A stretch of 64,000 bases of DNA from Thiothrix litoralis (GTDB lineage: Bacteria > Pseudomonadota > Gammaproteobacteria > Thiotrichales > Thiotrichaceae), in NCBI RefSeq assembly GCF_017901135.1, contig NZ_CP072801.1:62001-126000 (forward strand). Direction: 5' to 3'. A program made the position numbers and the translations under genes. This document shows positions 10,776-24,262 of this stretch, one piece after another. The first letter of the stretch is position 1; the number at the start of each line of letters is the position of its first letter. Under the pieces are notes generated by a model. That model was not told where the DNA came from and searched no databases. It was given only the letters and a program-made list of their open reading frames with translations.

Positions 10776-12680
10776 ATGTTAGTTTTCTCCAATCTCGGCT
10801 TACGGCGCGGTAGCAAGGAATTGCTCGGCGGCGCTACATTAAACATCCACCCCGGCCAGCGGGTCGGTTTGACCGGCGCGAATGGCACGGGCAAATCCAG
10901 CCTGTTTTCACTGATTCGGGGCGATCTGTCACCGGATGTGGGCAATTTCAGCATTCCCGCCGGTTGGGTGATTGCGCATGTCAAACAGGAAACCCCCGCC
11001 ACCGAAGCCACGGCGCTGGATTACGCGTTGGAAGGCGATGCCGAATACGTCAGTCTGAAGGCGCAATTGGAACATGCGGACGGAATGCACATTGGCGATT
11101 TGTACGCCAAGCTGGATGCCATTGACGGTTATACCACCGAAAGCCGCGCCGCCACCTTGCTGCACGGGCTGGGTTTCAAGCCGGAAGACATCCGCAACCC
11201 GGTTTCCAGCTTTTCCGGCGGTTGGCGGATGCGTCTGAATCTGGTGCAAGCGCTGATGTGCCGTTCCGACCTGTTGCTGCTTGACGAACCCACCAACCAC
11301 CTTGACCTCGATGCGGTCATCTGGCTGCAAGACTGGCTGAAAGCTTATCGCGGCACGCTGCTGCTGATTTCGCATGACCGCGAATTTCTCGATGCGATTT
11401 GCACCCAGATTGCGCACATCGAACAAGGCCGCATCACCCTGTATACCGGCGACTACTCGACCTTCGAGATCACCCGTTCGGAACGGCTGGCGCAACAGCA
11501 ATCCGCCTATGTGAAACAGCAACTCGAACGGGCGCACATCCAAAGCTATGTCGACCGTTTCCGCGCCCAAGCCACCAAGGCACGCCAAGCGCAAAGCCGC
11601 TTGAAAGCGCTGGAACGCATGGAAACCATCGGTCCCGCCCACGTCGATTCCCCGTTCACCTTCAGTTTTAAGACGCCGCACAAGCTGCCCGACCGTCTGC
11701 TACACGTCGATAAAGTCAGCATCGGTTACGGCGAAAAGATCATCGTGGCAGGCATCGAACTGCAAATCATGCCGGGGGATCGCATCGGCTTGATCGGCCC
11801 CAATGGCGCGGGTAAATCTACCCTGATCAAGTTCATGGCTGGCCTATTGCCTGCCCAAGGCGGCGAAAGCTGGCAGGCGGCCGACATCAAAATCGGCTAC
11901 TTCGCCCAGCACCAGTTGGAACAACTGAAAATCGACCAGTCGCCGCTGCAACATTTACGCGAACTCGACAAGCAAGCCCGCGAGCAAGATTTACGTAACT
12001 ACCTCGGCGGCTTCGCCTTCCAAGGCGCACGGGTAGATGAAGCGATTGAGCCATTTTCCGGCGGTGAAAAAGCCCGTCTGGCACTGGCCTTGCTGATTTA
12101 CCAGAAGCCCAATCTGCTACTGCTCGACGAACCCACCAACCACCTTGACCTCGACATGCGCCTTGCTCTGAGCATGGCCTTGCAGGATTACGTCGGCGCC
12201 ATGGTTATCGTCTCGCATGACCGCCACATGCTGAAAATGGTGACGGACAAGCTGCTGCTGGTGGAAGGCGGCAAGGCGCAAGAGTTTGACGGCGACCTCG
12301 ACGATTATTCCGTGTGGCTACAAAAACGTTTCCGTGAGGAAGAGCAAGCCGCAGGGCAGGGTGAGATGCCTGCTCCGGCGGCCTCTCACAGCGCGGCAGG
12401 ACGTAAAGACCAGCGCCGTGAATCGGCCGAAAAGCGCAAACGCTTCCAGCCACTTAAGCAAAAAGCCGACAAGCTGGAAAAAGAGCTGGAAAAACTGGCG
12501 CAGCGCAAAACCGACTTAGAAGCAAAACTCGCCGAGCCAGATATGCACACCGAGGCCAACAAGCAAGTATTGAAGCAGTTGCTGCTGGATCAATTGGCGC
12601 TGGAAACGAAAATCAGCACTGCGGAAACCGCATGGATGGCAGCCAGCGAAGAGTACGACACGGCAATGGGAGGGGATTAA
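10776..12680 (+). CDS. yheS: ABC-F family ATPase YheS
   Basis: Soluble ABC-F protein, 634 aa, with two ABC domains and no membrane part; ABC-F proteins act on the ribosome. Walker A motifs are GANGTGKSS and GPNGAGKST, signatures FSGGWRMRLNL and FSGGEKARLALAL, and both Walker B motifs read LLLLDEPTNHLDLD. The inter-domain linker (RFRAQATKARQAQSRLKALE) and a charged C-terminal coiled coil (about 540-620) match YheS, whose length it shares. A TATACT-like -10 lies near 10720. Confidence 0.93.
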   Translation: MLVFSNLGLRRGSKELLGGATLNIHPGQRVGLTGANGTGKSSLFSLIRGDLSPDVGNFSIPAGWVIAHVKQETPATEATALDYALEGDAEYVSLKAQLEHADGMHIGDLYAKLDAIDGYTTESRAATLLHGLGFKPEDIRNPVSSFSGGWRMRLNLVQALMCRSDLLLLDEPTNHLDLDAVIWLQDWLKAYRGTLLLISHDREFLDAICTQIAHIEQGRITLYTGDYSTFEITRSERLAQQQSAYVKQQLERAHIQSYVDRFRAQATKARQAQSRLKALERMETIGPAHVDSPFTFSFKTPHKLPDRLLHVDKVSIGYGEKIIVAGIELQIMPGDRIGLIGPNGAGKSTLIKFMAGLLPAQGGESWQAADIKIGYFAQHQLEQLKIDQSPLQHLRELDKQAREQDLRNYLGGFAFQGARVDEAIEPFSGGEKARLALALLIYQKPNLLLLDEPTNHLDLDMRLALSMALQDYVGAMVIVSHDRHMLKMVTDKLLLVEGGKAQEFDGDLDDYSVWLQKRFREEEQAAGQGEMPAPAASHSAAGRKDQRRESAEKRKRFQPLKQKADKLEKELEKLAQRKTDLEAKLAEPDMHTEANKQVLKQLLLDQLALETKISTAETAWMAASEEYDTAMGGD

Positions 12681-12748: not shown

Positions 12749-12786
12749 GTTCGCACGCTCGGCAGGGTATACCTTGTCGAGCGAAC
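12749..12786. promoter_or_regulatory. Imperfect inverted repeat, candidate activator site
   Basis: GTTCGC at 12749-12754 mirrors GCGAAC at 12781-12786, with further partial pairing (TCGGCAGG against CCTTGTCGA). It is 65 bases upstream of the sigma-54 promoter, a normal distance for an upstream activating sequence bound by an enhancer-binding protein. The alternative is a terminator for yheS, but no T-run follows. Assignment is by position only. Confidence 0.4.
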
Positions 12787-12850
12787 TTCATTTCGCCCCT
12801 CCAATACTCATTTTAAATCCAAGTATATGATAATCAATAAAAAATAGGAT

Positions 12851-12866
12851 TGGCACGTCAGTTGCA
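12851..12866 (+). promoter_or_regulatory. Sigma-54 (RpoN) promoter
   Basis: Reads TGGCACG-TCAG-TTGCA, a full match to the -24/-12 consensus with correct spacing (GG at 12852-12853, GC at 12864-12865). Transcription should begin near 12876, leaving a ~38-base leader with an AGGGAG ribosome site before the ATG at 12914. A sigma-54 activator gene lies at the far end of the same cluster (18430-19779), which supports the site being functional. Confidence 0.85.
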
Positions 12867-12913
12867 ATATCTCTAATGTGATTGGAAACGTATTTCGTTA
12901 GGGAGAAAACATC

Positions 12914-13537
12914 ATGTACACAGCAGAGTTCGAAAATTTTGAATTTGAAGACGAGTTCGAGAATGAATTCGAGGAACCTAGTCTGTCACGCCCGTTTAGC
13001 GAGCAGCAGGAAATGGAGTTGGCGGCTGAGTTATTGGAAGTGGGTTCGGATGAGGAGTTAGAGGAATTCCTCGGTAAATTGATTAAGAAAGCGGCTAAGG
13101 GTGTCGGCAGTTTTGTGCGTTCCCCAGCCGGTAAAGCGGTCGGTGGTTTTCTGAAAGGGTTGGCTAAAAAAGCATTGCCAGTAGCGGGTGCGGCTTTGGG
13201 CAATTTTGTTGTGCCGGGAGTGGGCGGGGCGATTGGCGGCAAATTGGGTTCGGTTGCCAGTTCCCTGTTTGAGCTGGAGATGGAGGGCATGAGCCCAGAA
13301 GACATGGAGTTTGAAGTGGCGCGTCGGTTTGTGCGTTTAGCAGGGGCTACCACGACTGCTGCTGCCCGCAATAACAAGCGTGGAACCCCGGATGTGGTGG
13401 TGAATCGTGCTATTCAGAATGCTGCCCGCCTGCACGCGCCGGGTTTGCTGCAAAATCGCCAGCCATCACGCAGTGGACGTGCCAGTTCCGGGCGTTGGGT
13501 CAGAAGTGGTAATCGCATCATTTTATTGGGTGTTTAA
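12914..13537 (+). CDS. Small protein with acidic N-terminus and amphipathic Gly-rich core (A)
   Basis: Unrecognised 207-aa protein, first gene after the sigma-54 promoter. Residues 5-20 are almost only E, D and F; an acidic helix-like stretch (32-52) leads to EEFLGKLIKKAAKG. Residues 55-112 alternate lysine-rich helices with hydrophobic Gly/Ala segments containing repeated GxxxG-type motifs (VPGVGGAIGGKLG), as in membrane-active peptides. A second acidic segment follows (119-135), then an Arg-rich tail ending GRWVRSGNRIILLGV. The same plan and end motif recur in the next gene. The layout resembles a leader plus membrane-active cargo, but no activity can be shown from sequence. Confidence 0.8.
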   Translation: MYTAEFENFEFEDEFENEFEEPSLSRPFSEQQEMELAAELLEVGSDEELEEFLGKLIKKAAKGVGSFVRSPAGKAVGGFLKGLAKKALPVAGAALGNFVVPGVGGAIGGKLGSVASSLFELEMEGMSPEDMEFEVARRFVRLAGATTTAAARNNKRGTPDVVVNRAIQNAARLHAPGLLQNRQPSRSGRASSGRWVRSGNRIILLGV

Positions 13538-13563
13538 ACAATTCAGGCAAAAGGAGAGATGTC

Positions 13564-14208
13564 ATGCACGATATTGATGGAACCCTGTTACGTGGGGTGC
13601 AAAGTGAATGGGAAAATGACGGCGAATCAGAATGGGGTGCAGAGAATGAATGGGAAACCCAAGATGAATTCGAGTTTGAAACCGCTGACGAGTTTGAAGC
13701 TGAGGCTGATCTGGACCCAGAAGACGCGCTAGCAAGCGAGATGCTGGAGTTGGAAAGCGAAGCGGAAATGGAGCAGTTCTTGGGAGGCTTGATCCGCCGC
13801 GCCGCGAAGCGGGCAGTGCCGTTAGCCAAACAAGCAGGACGCTTTTTGTACAAAACCGCCCAGCCGCATTTGAAACAAGCTTGGAAGGGAATTGGGAACG
13901 ATTTAGTGAACAAAGGTTCCGATGCCGCCCGTGGTTGGGTGGATCAAAGTGCCAGTCGTTTGTTTGGTGAAATGCCGAGTGCTGCCAAAAACCGGGCTGC
14001 ACTGAATGTTGCCCGCAAAGTGGTACAAGCAGCGCAGACAACCGGGAAACAGATGGCACGCTTACCACCAAGCTCGCCACCGGCTGCGGTCAAAACGATT
14101 GTCACCAAGGCTTGTCAGCAGTATTTCCCACCAATGGAGAGGGGAGTATCTGGTAAACGCGGTACGTGGGTACGGCAGGGTAATAAGATCATTCTGTTCG
14201 GCCTTTAG
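13564..14208 (+). CDS. Small protein with acidic N-terminus and amphipathic core (B), paralogue of A
   Basis: Unrecognised 214-aa protein. An N-terminal E/D/W/F-rich region (14-70) leads to EMEQFLGGLIRRAAKRAVP, aligning with EELEEFLGKLIKKAAKG of protein A. A basic amphipathic region follows (76-120), and the end GTWVRQGNKIILFGL matches A's end. A FLGG at 72-75 looks like a double-glycine leader junction, although the protein is much longer than a typical double-glycine peptide. Starts 26 bases after A with a good AGGAGAG site; co-transcribed. Confidence 0.8.
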   Translation: MHDIDGTLLRGVQSEWENDGESEWGAENEWETQDEFEFETADEFEAEADLDPEDALASEMLELESEAEMEQFLGGLIRRAAKRAVPLAKQAGRFLYKTAQPHLKQAWKGIGNDLVNKGSDAARGWVDQSASRLFGEMPSAAKNRAALNVARKVVQAAQTTGKQMARLPPSSPPAAVKTIVTKACQQYFPPMERGVSGKRGTWVRQGNKIILFGL

Positions 14209-14218
14209 GAGGTGTGTG

Positions 14219-15487
14219 ATGTCGGCTGCTCTGAATGCTTACCTGGATCAGGAGGCGAGTGCCTTGCTGAGCCGTCTGGAATCGGTCTTGCCGTTTTCCA
14301 GAACCATGCCGATGGTGGCCGCATCATCGCCGAGTCAGGAAATTTTACACACGATTGAAGTGCACATGCGTGAGCAATGTAACCAGCAACGCCAACGCAT
14401 TTTAGGGTTTCGCCAGTGGCTGCACAGTCCGACGGGTAGGGTGGCTAAGCCGACCGTGGTGCAACGCCAATTCACCGTGGTGAAGTTACGTTTCAATGCG
14501 GTACTGGATCAGTTGGACATCTTTGCGGATGTACTGACCCAGCGCGGTGAGTATGAGCACGGCGTGTGGATGTCGGCGTTGGATTATGCTGCGCAGGATG
14601 CTTTACGCAAGCCGGGGGGGGATTACGAGCCATTGCCGATGATCTGTTATTTGGAACGTGGGCATGGTGCGGCTATTCGGCGGGCGCGAACTAGGCTACC
14701 GGGTGGCGTTGCTAACCCTGTCAGTATTGTGCGGGTTCCACGTGAGCGCATGGTGGGTGGTGGGATTGCTTCATCCCTGTTTCATGAAGTGGGGCATCAG
14801 GGCGCTGCACAACTGGATTTGGTCAAAAATTTTGGTGAGACCTTGCAGGCGCAGCGTCAGCCGGGTCAGGTGTGGGACTTCTGGATACGTTGGCGTTCAG
14901 AAATTCTCGCCGACTTTTGGGCATTGGCACAGCTAGGGGTGACAGCAACGGCGGGGTTGATGCTGGTGGTTATGTTGCCACGGGCATTTGTGTTTCGTAT
15001 CAGTATGGATGCACCGCACCCGTTTCCGTGGATGCGGGTGCAGATCAGTTGCCACTTGGGTGAGCTGCTGTTTCCCGACCCGCAATGGCAACGCCTTCGG
15101 GAGCGTTGGGAGGCGATGTATCCGCTTCGCAGCGTGAGTCCGCCTGAGCGTGCAATAGTTGAGGCTTTATTGAAAAGTTTGCCCGAGTTTGCCCGTACCT
15201 TATTGGCGTTTAAACCGACCGCTATGGGGGGCAGACGCTTGGTGGAATTATTTCCTTTGGCGGCGCGGCAACCAGAACTATTGCGACGACGCTTCAGGCA
15301 ATGGCAGCAGAATCCACCCGTTATGTACAACCATCCACCCGGCGAGGTATTCGCGGTCTTCGGGCAAGCGCGTGAGGATGGCGCATTAGGTGCGGCCAAT
15401 GAAGCAGAACTATTGAAGCGCTTATTTAACCATTGGGCGCTGGAGAATTCGGGCATTGGCAAAGTCGATGCCGTTAGCAAATCGTAA
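14219..15487 (+). CDS. Putative HExxH zinc metalloprotease
   Basis: 422-aa predicted cytoplasmic protein. HEVGH at residues 189-193 is a zincin motif, and a downstream glutamate in SEILADFW (228) is well placed as third zinc ligand, as in gluzincins. Around residues 255-275 a DAPHPFPWMRVQ stretch resembles the DxHP loop seen in some membrane-linked metallopeptidases. I chose the ATG at 14219 behind AGGAGG; the longer frame from 14006 overlaps gene B. Its place right after two leader-like small proteins suggests, but does not prove, that it processes them. Confidence 0.75.
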   Translation: MSAALNAYLDQEASALLSRLESVLPFSRTMPMVAASSPSQEILHTIEVHMREQCNQQRQRILGFRQWLHSPTGRVAKPTVVQRQFTVVKLRFNAVLDQLDIFADVLTQRGEYEHGVWMSALDYAAQDALRKPGGDYEPLPMICYLERGHGAAIRRARTRLPGGVANPVSIVRVPRERMVGGGIASSLFHEVGHQGAAQLDLVKNFGETLQAQRQPGQVWDFWIRWRSEILADFWALAQLGVTATAGLMLVVMLPRAFVFRISMDAPHPFPWMRVQISCHLGELLFPDPQWQRLRERWEAMYPLRSVSPPERAIVEALLKSLPEFARTLLAFKPTAMGGRRLVELFPLAARQPELLRRRFRQWQQNPPVMYNHPPGEVFAVFGQAREDGALGAANEAELLKRLFNHWALENSGIGKVDAVSKS

Positions 15488-15489
15488 AC

Positions 15490-15505
15490 GCATACTGTGG
15501 TATGC
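15490..15505. promoter_or_regulatory. Small hairpin before the ribosome site of the 604-aa gene
   Basis: Perfect inverted repeat GCATAC-TGTG-GTATGC directly followed by AGGAG and the ATG at 15519. It could stabilise or attenuate the downstream message within the operon. No T-run, so not a classical terminator. Confidence 0.35.
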
Positions 15506-15518
15506 AGGAGAGTGAGTG

Positions 15519-17333
15519 ATGGGAACTACACAAAGCATCATAAGTTTCAGTGTTTTTAAGAAAGAATTATTGTTTTCAAACATAAAGAAACTAAATTTCA
15601 CTTATAGATCTAATGGTGTCTTTCATTCGGAGATACTTGATGTTAAACCGGATGAGTGTACTTTGGATGAGAAGGAGGTTGCCTTCTGTTTTTCTGCTAC
15701 ATATAAAGCAAAAGAAAATATAGATGACGATTCAGTAGTTCTACTTGTTTGGCTAGATCAGGGATTTGTTGAGGCATCTGTCAATAAGTCTCAGTCTATT
15801 GGGAAAAGTAGCTCTATCCTTTTTAAAGGAAAGGTTTTTCATATAGATGAAATAGAGGAGCTTGCAAAAGGCGTTGTGATTGATGCTTCCAGTTTTATTA
15901 AGAAGAGTAGTCGAGATGAGGCCGTTCCTGTTAGTTTGCAACCAGCAAGCAAGCGCCCTAGTTACGAAAGTGTTCTATGGGAGGTTGTGAAAGAGAGAAC
16001 GGGAGCTATTTCATTTGATGCTTATGGACAATACTTAAATGGTGTTTTTTGTTTGAATTCAGAGGAATCAAAAGCTTATAGACAAGCTAATGAGGTGACA
16101 GGAATTTCATTTCAAGGGTCTAATGCTTATGATGCGTTGAATATGGCAACCGACTGTTTTCTTAAAGAGGAGTGCGGTGTTGTTGAGGATGACAACATGC
16201 TCGAAAACTGGCTGAGATTTATTGATAAAGATGATCCTGGTACCAATCTGCTGGATAAGTGGCGTCAGAATGCACAAAAATTAAAAGATGATTACTTGTT
16301 GGGTATTAAACATGATGTGTCACAGCCTCTGCCTTTGCCGTATATGCAATTGATTCGGGAAAAACTGGGTGAATTACCCTTGAAAAGCGGTATGGCCTTG
16401 GGTTTTTCTATCAATACTAAAGAGAAAGAAGGTGAGTCTTGCTATGGTATTTCTACTGCGCGGGCTGCTTGTCCTACCATGATAGAGCTGATTTGGTCTT
16501 ATTGGATGGAAGAAAGCTTGCTAGTGCAAACGATGAATGCTATTACCCGCCGTTTCCAGAACGTGCGTGCCGGTAATGTGGACCCATTGGCACGGATGGA
16601 TATTGATCCCTTGCGTCCAATGAGTAATTTGTTATGGGGTTATATTCAAGATGAACCTTCGCGTCTTTCATTGATTCGCCGTGCTTATGAATACGATCAT
16701 CACTATGGTTTTTCCTTGGCAGGTAAAGCGGTGCCAAAAATCAAAACAGCCGATAGCCGTTCGCGTTTTCTGGGGGCATTCCACCAGTTGTTGAATTTGG
16801 CACATCGTTTCTTTCGTTCATACGATGATACAACCATCAAGGCGGATGCTTTTCCTTTGCTGAATGCGTTGCGTGAAGTGCATCTCATTTTGGCAGAAGG
16901 GGCGCATAACCAATACGGTGATTTGCCTTGGGTCGCGCGTAAGGAAATGCTGATGATGCAGTGGATGTTAGCTCGCCCAGAAATGCGTGAATTTATTGGT
17001 GGACGCACCATGGTTCCCCAAAAAGAGCGGTGGATGGATCGGGTCGATGGTATGAAACGGTTACAAGGTTGGTCAGGTACGGCAACTACTCATTTTGTGG
17101 ATTTGGCACAGACGGGTGAGCGTTTGTTGCTGTCTATTCGCTTTGCCTCTTGGAGTCAGATAGATAAAAGCGAAGTCGCATTGTCGTGGGCGGTTTTCTG
17201 GCGTGATGACATCCAGCGTTATGCACATGCTTACCGAGCGGTGACAGGTGTCGATCTGACAGAACCGATGGCGCAAACGGCGTTGGATACTAAACCACCT
17301 TCGTATTGGCTATTGCAACGTGAGGCATCCTGA
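15519..17333 (+). CDS. Protein of unknown family (604 aa)
   Basis: I do not recognise this protein. No signal peptide or clear membrane helix is visible. The N-terminal ~220 residues are encoded by markedly AT-rich DNA (15520-16250) unlike the flanking genes; from about 16300 base use returns to the local norm. The C-terminal part has long aromatic-rich helices, an YDHHYGF segment and a conserved-looking ARAACPTMIELIWSYWMEE stretch. The ATG at 15519 is used because AGGAG lies 8 bases upstream (a GTG directly precedes it). Co-directional with the sigma-54 operon, with short gaps both sides. Confidence 0.75.
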   Translation: MGTTQSIISFSVFKKELLFSNIKKLNFTYRSNGVFHSEILDVKPDECTLDEKEVAFCFSATYKAKENIDDDSVVLLVWLDQGFVEASVNKSQSIGKSSSILFKGKVFHIDEIEELAKGVVIDASSFIKKSSRDEAVPVSLQPASKRPSYESVLWEVVKERTGAISFDAYGQYLNGVFCLNSEESKAYRQANEVTGISFQGSNAYDALNMATDCFLKEECGVVEDDNMLENWLRFIDKDDPGTNLLDKWRQNAQKLKDDYLLGIKHDVSQPLPLPYMQLIREKLGELPLKSGMALGFSINTKEKEGESCYGISTARAACPTMIELIWSYWMEESLLVQTMNAITRRFQNVRAGNVDPLARMDIDPLRPMSNLLWGYIQDEPSRLSLIRRAYEYDHHYGFSLAGKAVPKIKTADSRSRFLGAFHQLLNLAHRFFRSYDDTTIKADAFPLLNALREVHLILAEGAHNQYGDLPWVARKEMLMMQWMLARPEMREFIGGRTMVPQKERWMDRVDGMKRLQGWSGTATTHFVDLAQTGERLLLSIRFASWSQIDKSEVALSWAVFWRDDIQRYAHAYRAVTGVDLTEPMAQTALDTKPPSYWLLQREAS

Positions 17334-17349
17334 GCCCTGAGGAGCCTGC

Positions 17350-18462
17350 ATGAATACGCCTGTGCTGCATTTTAATCGTGCGCATTACCTTGATCTGAGC
17401 CCTTATCCGCTCAGGGTAACGCAGCCAGTAGCGACCGGGATGCCTGCTGTATTGTTCGAGTCAAGTCAGGAACGCTTATTGGCTAAGCAAATGGCAGCCA
17501 TGCAGGGGCAAGCGGCAGCAGTGCTGGGTATGTCTACCTTGCATCTGTTCTGGGACTGGTTTGAGTTGGTGCGCCAAACGCCCGTGCAGGTATTCATGGC
17601 GCAGGATACCTACCCCTTCATCCAGTTATTGGCAAAGCGTGCGTTTACACCACAGCGGTTGCAGACGTTCCGGGATATGGCTGAATTGGCAAAACAATTG
17701 GCACAGGTGTCACCGGCAAGTCTAGTGATGGTGGTGGCAGATAGTTGGTCATTGCGCCGTAATCAGCCTTTCGCCGTTAAATCCTGCTTAAAGTTGTTGA
17801 GCGGTCGGCGCGGTTTGTTAGTGTTGGACGATACGCAAACCTGTGGCTTGTTGGGGCATAACCCGTCACGGCAATTACCGTTTGGGGGCGGTGGCGGTGG
17901 TATTTTGCCGTGGGTTGGTGTTGCCACAGAACAAGTGGTGCTGATTACCTCGCTTGCCAAGGCATTAGGTACGCCGGTGGCGGTGTTGTCGGGGAATGCA
18001 GCCGTGGTCGACTGTTTTCGGCAACAGTCGCATACCCGTACCTATTGCAGCCCGCCGTCGCCTTGGCTTGTGGAACATGCGCTGCACGCCCTTCAGCAGA
18101 ATGCACAAACAGGCGGAAGGCGACGCCGGTCGTTGGTCGGGCATATCCATTATTTTCAGGCGCAGTTACAGGGCGTAGGCATTCACTGGGAAGGTGGGAT
18201 CTTTCCAGTGCAGAAGCTGGTTTTCCCCTATGACTGGCAGTGTGTGGCGATCTACCGTTACCTGCGTCAGCGCCAGGTGGAAACCGTGGTGACCCGCAGC
18301 GACAGCGGTGCTTGTGCCTTGACGGTGGTGTTGCGGGCAGGGCATCGGCGGGAAGATATTCGGCACTTGGTGATATTGTTGACCCAAGCGGTGGCGCAGT
18401 TGCCAACACCCATGCGTGGGCGCGTCAGGTCAGGGTGTCCATTTAGCCCGGAACTGTTGTAG
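17350..18462 (+). CDS. Degenerate fold-type I PLP enzyme (AONS/KBL-like)
   Basis: 370 aa, resembling the alpha-oxoamine synthase group (8-amino-7-oxononanoate synthase, KBL). VLDDTQTCGLLG (residues 158-169) corresponds to the usual DDAHGxGxxG, so the cofactor-binding aspartate is kept but the catalytic-type histidine is replaced by Gln163. SLAKALG contains the probable Schiff-base lysine (Lys204). A run of glycines (179-184) follows the DD motif. Family members are near 400 aa, so the fold is roughly complete. Begins 16 bases after the unknown gene with GAGGAG, and its end overlaps the convergent regulator by 33 bases. Confidence 0.72.
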   Translation: MNTPVLHFNRAHYLDLSPYPLRVTQPVATGMPAVLFESSQERLLAKQMAAMQGQAAAVLGMSTLHLFWDWFELVRQTPVQVFMAQDTYPFIQLLAKRAFTPQRLQTFRDMAELAKQLAQVSPASLVMVVADSWSLRRNQPFAVKSCLKLLSGRRGLLVLDDTQTCGLLGHNPSRQLPFGGGGGGILPWVGVATEQVVLITSLAKALGTPVAVLSGNAAVVDCFRQQSHTRTYCSPPSPWLVEHALHALQQNAQTGGRRRRSLVGHIHYFQAQLQGVGIHWEGGIFPVQKLVFPYDWQCVAIYRYLRQRQVETVVTRSDSGACALTVVLRAGHRREDIRHLVILLTQAVAQLPTPMRGRVRSGCPFSPELL

Positions 18463-19779
18463 GGAGCGCACGGTTATTCCCAAGCGTTCGGCGGCTTTTG
18501 CCATATTGCCGTGTTCTTCCTGAAGGGTCAGGGTGCGGGCAATATCGGCAACGTATTCTTTGAGTGTTTTCAAATCCATACCGTGATGCAAGGCGGTGAG
18601 TACGGGTTGATGGAAACTTGCCTCATAATCGGCGAAATAGGTTGCTCCAATCTTTTGTAGGTAATCACGCGGAATATCATTGGTGGATAATGCGCCGTAG
18701 CCGTTATAACGCCCGCACATGGCTCTGACTAATTGCCGTAACTCGCGCACGTTGCCGGGAAAGTCATGGGCTTGCAGGGCGTAAATGAGTGTTGGATCGA
18801 CGGCGGGTGGTTCGGTAAATTCTTCGTGCAGGAATTTGTCGAGTAACAGCGGAATATCATCCTTACGCATTCGCAGCGGTGGCAGGCGAATGATATTGCT
18901 GGCAATGCGGTGGAAAAAGTCTTGGCGGAAGGTGCCGTGGCGCTGTTCTGTTTCCAGATCACGATTGGTGGCACTCACCAGTCGAAAATCGAGGGTTTGC
19001 CAGCGGTCGCCCCCTACCCGTTTATAGGCTTTTTCCTGAATCACGCGCAGTAAGGATGCTTGCAGAAATGCGGGAAGTTCGCCTACTTCATCCAGAAACA
19101 AGGTGCCGCCCGCCGCTTGCTCAAACATGCCTTCACGGGTGCGGATGGCATTGGTGAATGCGCCTTTTTCATGCCCAAAAAATTCACTGCCTGCCAGTTC
19201 GGGTACGACAGTGGTGCAGTCCAGTACCACCAGATCTTGTTTGTGTTCACGTTGATCGACGGTGTGTAATAAACGTGCAATCAATTCCTTGCCGGTACCA
19301 GGCTCGCCCAATAACAGGACATTCGCATGGGAGTAGCGCCCAATTTCAACGGTATTGCGCAAGACGTTTAGCCATGTTGGACTCTGACCGATGATCTGTT
19401 CACGAATGGCTCGCGCACTTAAAATACGGTCGATTTGCGCCCAGCGTTGCAATTGTCCTAGTACTGCTTGCAGCAAGCTGTTGGGGTTTTGCCAGCAAAA
19501 CAGGTGCGATACGCCAGCGGCAATCAGGTGAAGTTGTTGTTCCAGCGTGAGTTGAGGTTGGCAGCAAACCAGAATCATGCGGTGGCTGGCTTGTTCCGCA
19601 TAATGGGGTAATTTTTCCAGTAGTTCATTGTCGATGGTATTGGCGATCAATACACCCGGCTGTTCGCTGTGCTGTAGTGCCTGTGTGGGGGGGTGATGTG
19701 TTGCTTGGCAAAGTGCATTTACCCACGACGCACATTCGCGCGTTGCGGCATCTTTTTCTATGGATACCCAGCCCAACAT
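18430..19779 (-). CDS. Sigma-54-dependent transcriptional activator
   Basis: 449-aa enhancer-binding protein. Residues 1-120 look receiver-like but lack a clear phospho-acceptor aspartate pattern. The AAA+ domain has Walker A GEPGTGKE (158-165), GAFTNA at 206-211 in place of the canonical sigma-54 contact GAFTGA, and Walker B GGTLFLDE. The C-terminus is a Fis-type helix-turn-helix ([20 protein letters not shown]). Convergent with, and adjacent to, the cluster headed by a sigma-54 promoter at 12851, so it most likely controls that operon. The signal sensed is unknown. Confidence 0.93.
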
Positions 19780-19895: not shown

Positions 19896-20774
19896 CTAGG
19901 TGTCAGCCCAGAGTTTGAATTGTTGTTCGGTAAGTTGTAGCTTGTCGCACAGTGCTTGTAATTTTACCAAGTCTTTCTCCCCGCGCCGCAAATCCACCGG
20001 CACTTCCGGCACTTCGCAATGAATACCGGTCAACTGCCGTGCCAGCCGTAGCGTCGCCTGATGTTCTTCCACCAAACCTTGCAAGCGTTTCGCCCCACGG
20101 GTTTTCATTAGCCCGATTTCGGGGATGCGCGACAGCAACATTTCCACACTGCTGAATTTCTGCAACAGCTTGGCAGCGGTCGACATGCCAATGCCCGGAA
20201 TGCCGGGAATATTGTCGGCTATATCACCCGCGATGGCTAACTGATCGGGAATTTGCGCAGGCCATACCCCGAATTCTTTTTTCACCCCGCCGGGCGGTAG
20301 CGGTGTGCGCCTGCCGTAATCCCACCAGATGTCGTGTTCGCCGACCAGTTGGGTCAAATCTTTGTCGCCGCTGATGATCATGCAAGGCGTGCCGATGGCT
20401 TGTTGCTGTTTTGCCCAAGTGCCGATTACGTCGTCGGCTTCAAAGTGCTGGCTGGCGGTTTGCACAATGCCTAGCGCATCCAGAAAGTCGCGGCACAGTT
20501 GAAATTGATATTTGAGTTCGTCCGGGGTGGGGGAACGGTTGGCTTTATAAGCGGGGTAAATGGTCTTACGGGTGGACGTTTTCAGGCTGGTATCAAAAGC
20601 GAAGCCGATTTGCTGCGGCTGTTCGGTTTGTAGCAGGTTGTAAACGAAGCGCAGGAAACCCAGCACGGCGTTTACCGGATTGCCGTCGCGATCCAGCGGA
20701 ATGGGCTGGCGCACGAACCAGGGGCGGAATACGTAAATGCTGGCGTCAATTAGCCAGACAGGGTTTTCAGGCAT
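19896..20774 (-). CDS. 5'-3' exonuclease (ExoIX/Pol I N-domain family)
   Basis: Flap-endonuclease-type nuclease, 292 aa from the ATG at 20774. Metal-binding and DNA-binding signatures are WLIDASIYVFRPW, AFDTSLKTSTRK, FEADDVIGT, SGDKDLTQL and the helix-hairpin-helix-like GDIADNIPGIPGIG. Such free-standing enzymes match the 5' nuclease domain of DNA polymerase I and remove flaps or primers. The frame is open to 20834, but those extra residues do not look like the family, whose members begin close to VWLIDAS. Confidence 0.9.
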   Translation of the reverse strand: MPENPVWLIDASIYVFRPWFVRQPIPLDRDGNPVNAVLGFLRFVYNLLQTEQPQQIGFAFDTSLKTSTRKTIYPAYKANRSPTPDELKYQFQLCRDFLDALGIVQTASQHFEADDVIGTWAKQQQAIGTPCMIISGDKDLTQLVGEHDIWWDYGRRTPLPPGGVKKEFGVWPAQIPDQLAIAGDIADNIPGIPGIGMSTAAKLLQKFSSVEMLLSRIPEIGLMKTRGAKRLQGLVEEHQATLRLARQLTGIHCEVPEVPVDLRRGEKDLVKLQALCDKLQLTEQQFKLWADT

Positions 20775-20887
20775 GGTATTTTTCAGGTGGCGAATAAGTT
20801 TCTGGACTATAAACATAGAACTATAAAAATGCACGGCTAGGCTTTTTATGAAAGAATGAATTGATAGTGATTATTGAAGGAGAGGAC

Positions 20888-21535: not shown

Positions 21536-23427
<1,892 letters not shown>

Positions 23428-23436
23428 GTCGAGCGT
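23428..23436. repeat. Target-site duplication of IS66 copy 1 (right)
   Basis: Second copy of GTCGAGCGT, matching 21833-21841. Confidence 0.85.
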
Positions 23437-24084
23437 CCCCAGTTCCGGTAGGGAGGCTAGCAAGGTGAAACTGGCAATACGTCCCACACCTTTGAAACTC
23501 TTCAGCAGGTCTTCCTTCGCTTTCCATACGGGGCTGGCCTGCACGAATTGCCCCAAGTCTTTGTCCACATCGTCAATGTGCTGCTTGAGCCATTCAAGGT
23601 GCTGTTCGATATTCCCACGGACGCTACCTTGTGCCATAAACCAACGGTTTTGTTCGGCAACTCGTATCTCCACCAACTGACGGCGACGTGCCAGCAATTG
23701 GCTAAAAAGTTGCTGCTCAGCATCTTTCAAAGGACGGACTTCGGGGCGGATACGTTCTCCGAATAAGGCCAGTAATCGCGCATCCACTTTGTCCGTCTTG
23801 GCGAGTTGCCCCATTGCTTTAGCAAAATCCCGTGCTTGCCGGGGATTCACTACGGCAACGGGTAAGCCAGCTTCCATCAAGGCACAGGCAATGGGCGTTT
23901 CCAATCCACCTGTCGCTTCCATGACAATCAGGCTGGCATTCCAAAGCAACAACTTTTCGACCAATCCGGTTATTCCGGTGCTGGTGTTATCTGCTTGCCA
24001 TGCTTCGCCAGAAGGCAAACCATGAACATCCAGATGTGCTTTGGAAACATCAATGCCGATAAATGTTTCTTGGGTTTGTTCCAT
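23428..24084 (-). pseudogene. IS110 transposase, N-terminal fragment
   Basis: About 219 codons of the DEDD (RuvC-like) domain: start MEQTQETFIGIDVSK with the first Asp, then VMEATGG with the Glu, and LAKTDKVDARLLA with the Asp pair. The frame runs on into the IS66 end and stops at 23272 as an artefact. I chose the ATG at 24084; upstream residues belong to the element's non-coding end. Interrupted by IS66, so not functional unless the insert is lost. Confidence 0.9.
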
Positions 24085-24262
24085 GTTCCTGTACTCCCAT
24101 CCTAGCCGATGATGCGGGTTGTTCCCTGGCAACTGTTCGGGTTCTTCAAGAATTGGATGTGGCGACCCAAGCTTCCCCACGGGGTTCACCCAAAGGGCTG
24201 GCGGCCTGCCACATCCTGAAAACTCCTTGTTTAGTACATCCGGGATGATTCTTCCCAGATAC
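24085..24262 (-). ncRNA. Candidate bridge RNA region of the IS110 element
   Basis: The 5' non-coding end upstream of an IS110-type transposase is where the guide (bridge) RNA of this family is encoded. Here it contains a strong stem: GGATGTGGC (24155-24163) pairs exactly with GCCACATCC (24208-24216) around a 44-base loop that holds further paired G/C blocks (CCCC against GGGG near 24176-24184). The overall plan fits a stem with large internal loops. RNA boundaries and guide bases cannot be assigned by eye. Confidence 0.55.

Follow-up and report, generated by a model that had tools for sequence, protein, structure and literature searches.

In RiPP and bacteriocin clusters with leader peptidases, an acidic leader precedes a cationic amphipathic core and the peptidase is encoded next to it. 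In polymorphic toxin systems, according to the part of Zhang et al. (2012, PMC3482391) accessible to us, variable enzymes stand behind a shared N-terminal region with a peptidase adjacent, and the same portion of that paper gives the motif of PVC metallopeptidases in the form HExxHxxQ-E. Sigma-54 regulons with a dedicated enhancer-binding protein combine a -24/-12 site with an AAA+ activator carrying a Fis-type HTH, and Actinobacteria are without a sigma-54 system, both as given in the accessible part of the survey PMC3162934.

The locus described here lies in the genome of Thiothrix litoralis (4.28 Mb), within a stretch of 64,000 nucleotides that was analysed as a whole and is referred to as the window. 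Its parts and flanks are the following.

10776-12680, + strand, ABC-F gene, upstream flank
12851-12866, + strand, sigma-54-type -24/-12 site TGGCACGTCAGTTGCA, an exact consensus match that starts 63 nt 5' of gene A
12914-13537, + strand, gene A, no family above the cut-offs of Pfam and NCBIfam, C-terminal GRWVRSGNRIILLGV
13564-14208, + strand, gene B, divergent paralogue of A with an MHDIDxT N-terminus and a C-terminal motif as in A
14219-15487, + strand, gene M, predicted zinc metallopeptidase, HEVGHQ and downstream SEI-ADF (alignment of 6)
15516-17333, + strand, gene U, variable N-terminus and a strongly conserved C-terminal region of ~450 aa
17350-18462, + strand, gene PLP, short fold-type-I, BioF-like, with the Lys motif
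18430-19779, - strand, gene E, sigma-54 activator with AAA+ and Fis-type HTH, GAFTNA loop, convergent
19896-20834, - strand, 5'-3' exonuclease gene, downstream flank

Genes A, B, M, U and PLP are closely spaced on the + strand, and E, on the opposite strand, overlaps PLP convergently by 33 nt. The full ORF of M spans 14006-15487, with a probable start at 14219; U comprises 605 aa if read from GTG and 604 from the next ATG. Downstream of the block, at 21892-24189, there are two ORFs which we take to resemble IS66- and IS110-type transposases.

The acidic leader-like N-terminus, the cationic amphipathic core and the adjacent M recall RiPP and bacteriocin clusters; unlike in those, A is large and fully conserved, has no GG site and is not accompanied by a recurrent exporter, and no C39 peptidase-transporter was found in the window block or in the most frequent neighbour clusters. 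Likeness to polymorphic toxins may lie in the arrangement of variable enzymes, some of which share a short N-terminal pattern, in the vicinity of a peptidase, and in enzyme types common to both (amidase, glucosaminidase, trypsin-like, PLD, deaminase-like and nuclease-like). In contrast to them, Pfam scans of the cassette detected no T2SS, T5SS, T6SS, T7SS, PrsW or MuF trafficking domain, and by description the A-M-U core and sigma-54 control set it apart from the systems presented in the accessible part of PMC3482391. An HExxH peptidase, cargo with OmpA and peptidoglycan-binding domains, and some co-location in Actinobacteria are shared with PVC/eCIS toxins, but the cassette is without contractile-tail genes, and its M belongs to another sequence family and stands as a protein on its own. 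The -24/-12 site, the AAA+ activator and the Fis-type HTH correspond to sigma-54 regulons with a dedicated enhancer-binding protein, while the cassette differs in bearing a sigma-54 gene in Actinobacteria, which the accessible part of PMC3162934 describes as being without that system.

Searches of Pfam, NCBIfam, PADLOC, PHROGs and PDB sequences for a known family of A, M or U returned nothing above threshold, and none of the six cassette proteins matched PADLOC anti-phage defence models at E 0.1. Judged by sequence, the gene set appears to be new, with A, M and U outside named families, defence models and solved structures above threshold. A published description of the cassette was not found in the literature searched, whose coverage left out most subscription journals, so that a printed account may exist. 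A phage origin was rejected, as 64 pattern matches in IMG/VR, followed up by tblastn, yielded no relative of A.

Empty site in the genus and recurrence across bacteria

The block is a discrete cassette that genomes either have in full or lack. A and U are present in 4 of the 16 genomes of the genus, and the three carriers other than the window genome have the full A-B-M-U-PLP-E set between homologous flanks. In 8 of the 12 non-carriers, the ABC-F and exonuclease genes are convergent neighbours with 8-116 nt between the matches. This gap is filled by the cassette in three of the four carriers, and measures 7221 nt in the window genome (G000), 6960 nt in G004 and 7169 nt in G013. In G003, G009 and G011, three of the remaining four non-carriers, the flank genes are widely separated, and in the fourth, G015, each sits on a contig of its own. 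The segment singled out in the earlier note, 12749-19779, nearly coincides with the one that genomes of the genus either have or lack in full. The two cassette ends share no direct or inverted repeats of at least 9 nt. In the fourth carrier, G012, whose U is 98% identical to that of the window, the exonuclease gene is placed on another contig (C44:2220-3152), with one TAG within the match.

To follow the cassette beyond the genus, about 85,000 species genomes were scanned with a U profile, yielding 200 loci, of which 80 were kept. Together with three plasmids and the window they make up a set of 84 loci that was chosen by U and includes near relatives, many of them Oxalobacteraceae. By profile, 82 of these loci have M, 78 have A, 73 PLP, 69 E and 60 AH, an amidohydrolase of the Pfam family Amidohydro_2; all 84 have U by construction. 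Some of the absences concern short contigs. The genes are thus found together elsewhere, in agreement with the earlier view of the block as one system. Homologous cassettes mostly keep the same order, with the general layout A(-A)-M-U-PLP-(variable)-AH-<E, and occur in about nine bacterial phyla; a six- to eight-gene module of this spread, built on three unnamed core families, marks a gap in the map of bacterial physiology. In Actinomadura (L059) and Streptomyces (L087), the stretch examined contains neither PLP nor E nor AH. Four plasmid records were retrieved with A as query, from Ensifer, two Rhizobium and Paraburkholderia. The three plasmids examined have A followed by M and U, with PLP next in two of them, and a convergent activator downstream.

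In a phylum sample of 398 genomes that was not chosen by U, we found U in four and M in six. M adjoins U in all four U genomes, and the three of them other than the window genome all have A, AH and a convergent E, with PLP in two. Chance grouping of the genes was rejected on the grounds of recurrence, the 398-genome sample and the empty site. The two genomes of this sample with M only carry a second variant (L102:4439-7469 and L103:6178-8563), in which a very acidic A-like protein and an HExxH protein M are accompanied by several unknown genes, without U, PLP and E.

A tree of U was built by a quick method from 49 of the 84 rows, the 35 left out being near relatives or fragments. Pseudomonadota do not come together in it, and at least four changes are forced by starred branches. 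The window U groups with Pontibacter and Actinobacteria, apart from most other Pseudomonadota. For a tree made by a quick method, this topology points to horizontal spread without proving it.

Sigma-54 control

The exact site in the window, taken alone, is weak: with up to two mismatches, the RpoN-type consensus has 58 matches in the window against 55 expected, and the other of the two exact matches falls inside the upstream ABC-F gene. The site gains weight from sites of the same type before A in relatives. These were assessed in 76 loci, over 300 nt 5' of the first A, with the reverse strand of the same stretches as control and with a score whose maximum is 22 and whose weights were chosen by us; the loci are not independent. 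The full score was reached in 16 of the 76 loci on the sense strand and in one on the reverse strand, a score of at least 20 in 34 versus 2, and a score of at least 18 in 48 versus 13. The mean best score was 18.8 for sense, 16.2 for reverse and 15.9 for shuffled sequences. The consensus RpoN promoter proposed from the window is retained, given its exact match and the enrichment before A in relatives. The accompanying expectation of such promoters before homologous clusters holds for the majority of loci (48/76 at 18 or above) and fails for the other 28, where no site of this score was found in the 300 nt before A.

The convergent gene had been taken for a sigma-54 activator, and E indeed matches Sigma54_activat (E 4.1e-53) on the - strand. 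No receiver family was found in its N-terminal 120 aa. Of 70 relatives, 60 have the activator loop GAFTGA and 3 have GAYTGA. In place of GAFTGA, the loop GAFTNA appears in the window E, in L021 and in Pontibacter (L033), and GAFTSA in L096.

The window genome has one PF04552 sigma-54 match, outside the cassette. In five actinobacterial loci and one Chloroflexi locus, a sigma-54 gene is located beside E, at the following positions.

L022:4861-6372, cassette sigma-54 gene, actinobacterial
L026:4866-6377, cassette sigma-54 gene, actinobacterial
L043:5274-6722, cassette sigma-54 gene, actinobacterial
L050:5542-6729, cassette sigma-54 gene, actinobacterial
L082:4884-6692, cassette sigma-54 gene, actinobacterial
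L095:16025-17443, cassette sigma-54 gene, Chloroflexi bin

Pfam domains were confirmed in five of these genes, all except L026. Each of the six genomes has exactly one PF04552 match, and its coordinates agree with the cassette copy; one of the six matches has a TGA inside the wider frame. The C-terminal box is SRRAVNKYR/SRSAVRKYR-like in the actinobacterial genes and ARRTVAKYR in L095. Two other actinobacterial carriers, in which E was not detected, lack both a PF04552 match anywhere in the genome and a good promoter. Combined with the accessible part of PMC3162934, the actinobacterial pattern suggests that the cassette brings its own sigma-54, or seems to have lost this control, where the host is expected to be without one. 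It offers a clean test case for a regulatory circuit moving with its target operon.

Cassette proteins and variable genes

The description of A and B as two paralogous small proteins with acidic and amphipathic parts is supported, the two being about 36% identical. The N-terminus of A is acidic and FE-rich, with a net charge of -16 over residues 1-60. The protein also has a cationic amphipathic stretch; its net charge is +6 over residues 61-90, and a neutral Gly-rich hydrophobic stretch follows. The helix is modest when compared with shuffles, which are equally amphipathic in 2% of cases for the best stretch and in 8% and 16% for the others. In 75 of 77 loci, one or more of the upstream copies start with MH(D/N/E)xD, and 145 of the 184 matches to A have the C-terminal motif GRWxRxGxxIIL (also written GxW...G..I..). 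The residue next to the conserved G of A differs among 27 aligned rows (K, G, S, D, N or R), and no conserved cleavage site was identified in A. Weak matches link A to TRI4_N (E 0.0093) and to a phage tape-measure PHROG (E 0.0012), and B to a histone model (E 0.017). With no named family matched above a curated cut-off, the small proteins could not be assigned to a known housekeeping family.

M contains HEVGHQ, and so answers to the HExxH protein noticed earlier. Among relatives, HExGH is kept in 82 of 83 matches, the single miss being a fragment, and a second motif, W-SE[IVL]-D[FY], a downstream Glu pattern of our own definition, in 58 of 83. One PDB chain is weakly similar to M (E 0.94). U was rightly called an unrecognised large protein, since neither Pfam nor NCBIfam gave a family for the window copy at E values up to 1. 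Its C-terminal region has no family or PDB sequence match, and the N-terminus carries prealbumin- or carboxypeptidase-regulatory-like domains in a few members. PLP matches Aminotran_1_2 (E 7.7e-7) and the BioF model (E 1.2e-14), yet stays far under the BioF cut-off. The fold assigned to it in the earlier note is supported, but PLP is better called short than clearly dead, as it keeps the Lys-containing SLAKALG stretch, with the Lys motif present in 70 of 74 matches among relatives.

In many relatives, additional genes stand between PLP and E, and their products begin with acidic-aromatic N-termini, e.g. MNNPFAFEAEPFE or MNDTFELLPF. This N-terminal cargo pattern, written after the sequences had been inspected, fits 46 of 141 candidate genes, and 34 of the 680 ORFs taken as controls from outside the cassette; delimitation of the variable genes is approximate, because the ORFs of the loci were picked by our own calling. 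Inspected cargo N-termini have no obvious Sec signal peptides. Pfam domains were surveyed in 56 ORFs, and since these were hand-picked (55 of the 141 candidates and L077:8822), the counts are not frequencies: PG_binding_1 15, OmpA 6, Amidase_2 4, trypsin 4, VanY 3, M20 3 and GIY-YIG 3, with glucosaminidase, M23, NlpC/P60, PLD, papain and an APOBEC-like deaminase occurring once each. In one protein (L077:8822-11122), an A-like region is fused to an OmpA domain. The cassette of the window itself has no cargo-like gene, and a PG_binding_1 search of the window genome gave four proteins, none with the N-terminal cargo pattern.

Proposed working and alternative explanations

Gene set and order, spread, presence or absence as a unit, the link to sigma-54 and the domains of variable genes are most compatible with a cassette that is self-contained, has spread horizontally and is controlled by a sigma-54 switch of its own. 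It would make and mature membrane-active proteins, and in many relatives would do so for lytic or toxic cargo as well. We put this forward tentatively, as a reading with a good chance of being right that still falls short of probable. A signal would lead E to open the sigma-54 promoter. The acidic, aromatic N-terminus of A and B may keep the cationic amphipathic, glycine-rich core soluble, and M would remove this N-terminal part or trim the cargo. Mature A would insert in the membrane or assemble on it, and the shared N-termini could be recognised by U as its conserved partner. Cargo enzymes, with putative targets in the cell wall, proteins, lipids and nucleic acids, would leave the cell or act by way of A and the membrane, while PLP and AH may provide a small modification or a ligand. 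The charge and helix layout of A, its Gly-rich stretch and weak likeness to tape-measure profiles, the HExGH of M, the N-terminal cargo pattern, the lytic and toxin domains and the fusion of an A-like region to OmpA also speak for this reading. Against it stand the modest helix of A, the 28 loci with no site of 18 or above, the second M motif found in 58 of 83 matches, and the window cassette with no cargo-like gene; moreover, neither a PLP enzyme nor an amidohydrolase would be expected if the cassette served delivery alone. Should wall-attacking or toxic proteins be released in this manner, they would add a new mode of competition or lysis among bacteria. The system for membrane-active proteins proposed in the earlier note is partly supported, in that its gene set exists and recurs. 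A strict double-glycine leader is not supported, as the residue after the conserved G varies.

A more far-reaching form of this reading is doubtful. It holds that the cassette belongs to an undescribed class of export or delivery systems on the new core A, M and U, in which glycine-rich amphipathic proteins matured by M open a membrane route for cargo with an acidic-aromatic N-terminal tag, and which carries a dedicated sigma-54 into phyla lacking one.

An alternative is that the cassette makes a modified peptide or a small molecule, with A and B as precursors, M as leader peptidase, PLP, AH and, in some loci, M20 as tailoring enzymes, U as a new modifying enzyme, and the wall enzymes serving self-release or an accessory role. 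PLP is of the BioF/AOS type, AH is present in 60 of the 84 loci, M20 peptidases were found in 3 of the 56 hand-picked neighbours scanned, and in A a cationic core comes after the acidic, leader-like N-terminus. However, A is conserved through its C-terminal motif (145/184), unlike a variable core peptide, it has no double-glycine site, recurrent neighbour genes include no C39-type or other peptide exporter, and the variable genes bear wall-binding, protease and nuclease domains. We consider biosynthesis unlikely.

Acidic N-termini similar in style in A and in cargo, the latter inspected without obvious signal peptides, could also be packing signals of a scaffold or compartment. The glycine-rich helices of A would coat a lipid or protein body, U would act as a shell or sorting protein, and M as a maturation protease, as in prohead assembly. 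The gene layout does resemble protease-coupled assembly, but no shell-like or capsid family was recognised, and we regard such a structure as quite unlikely.

It is very unlikely that the cassette, preferentially read as a producer of membrane-active proteins, instead serves extracellular contractile injection systems (eCIS/PVC) as an accessory or cargo unit: although its cargo domains overlap the OmpA, PGB1, glucosaminidase and HExxH peptidase domains of PVC toxins in the accessible part of PMC3482391, and Pvc16_N is found in 8 of 19 hand-chosen carriers, the other 11 are without it, the window genome (no matches to PF14065 and PF04984, the Pvc16-type protein and contractile sheath) and two other carriers of the genus Thiothrix have neither Pvc16_N nor the sheath, and M reads HEVGHQ instead of the PVC peptidase form HExxHxxQ given in that part of the paper. 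In the genomes of L022, L043 and L082 (G451, G453 and G455), two of which are near-identical at the locus, eCIS genes share a contig with the cassette at a distance of 34-49 kb, but in the fourth actinobacterial genome tested (G454) the distance is 379 kb.

As a separate observation, U in the Rhodococcus rhodnii record (L043) is almost the same as in two Kibdelosporangium species (L050 and L082). The genome in this record is about 12.4 Mb, and either the record may be misnamed or the transfer may be recent.
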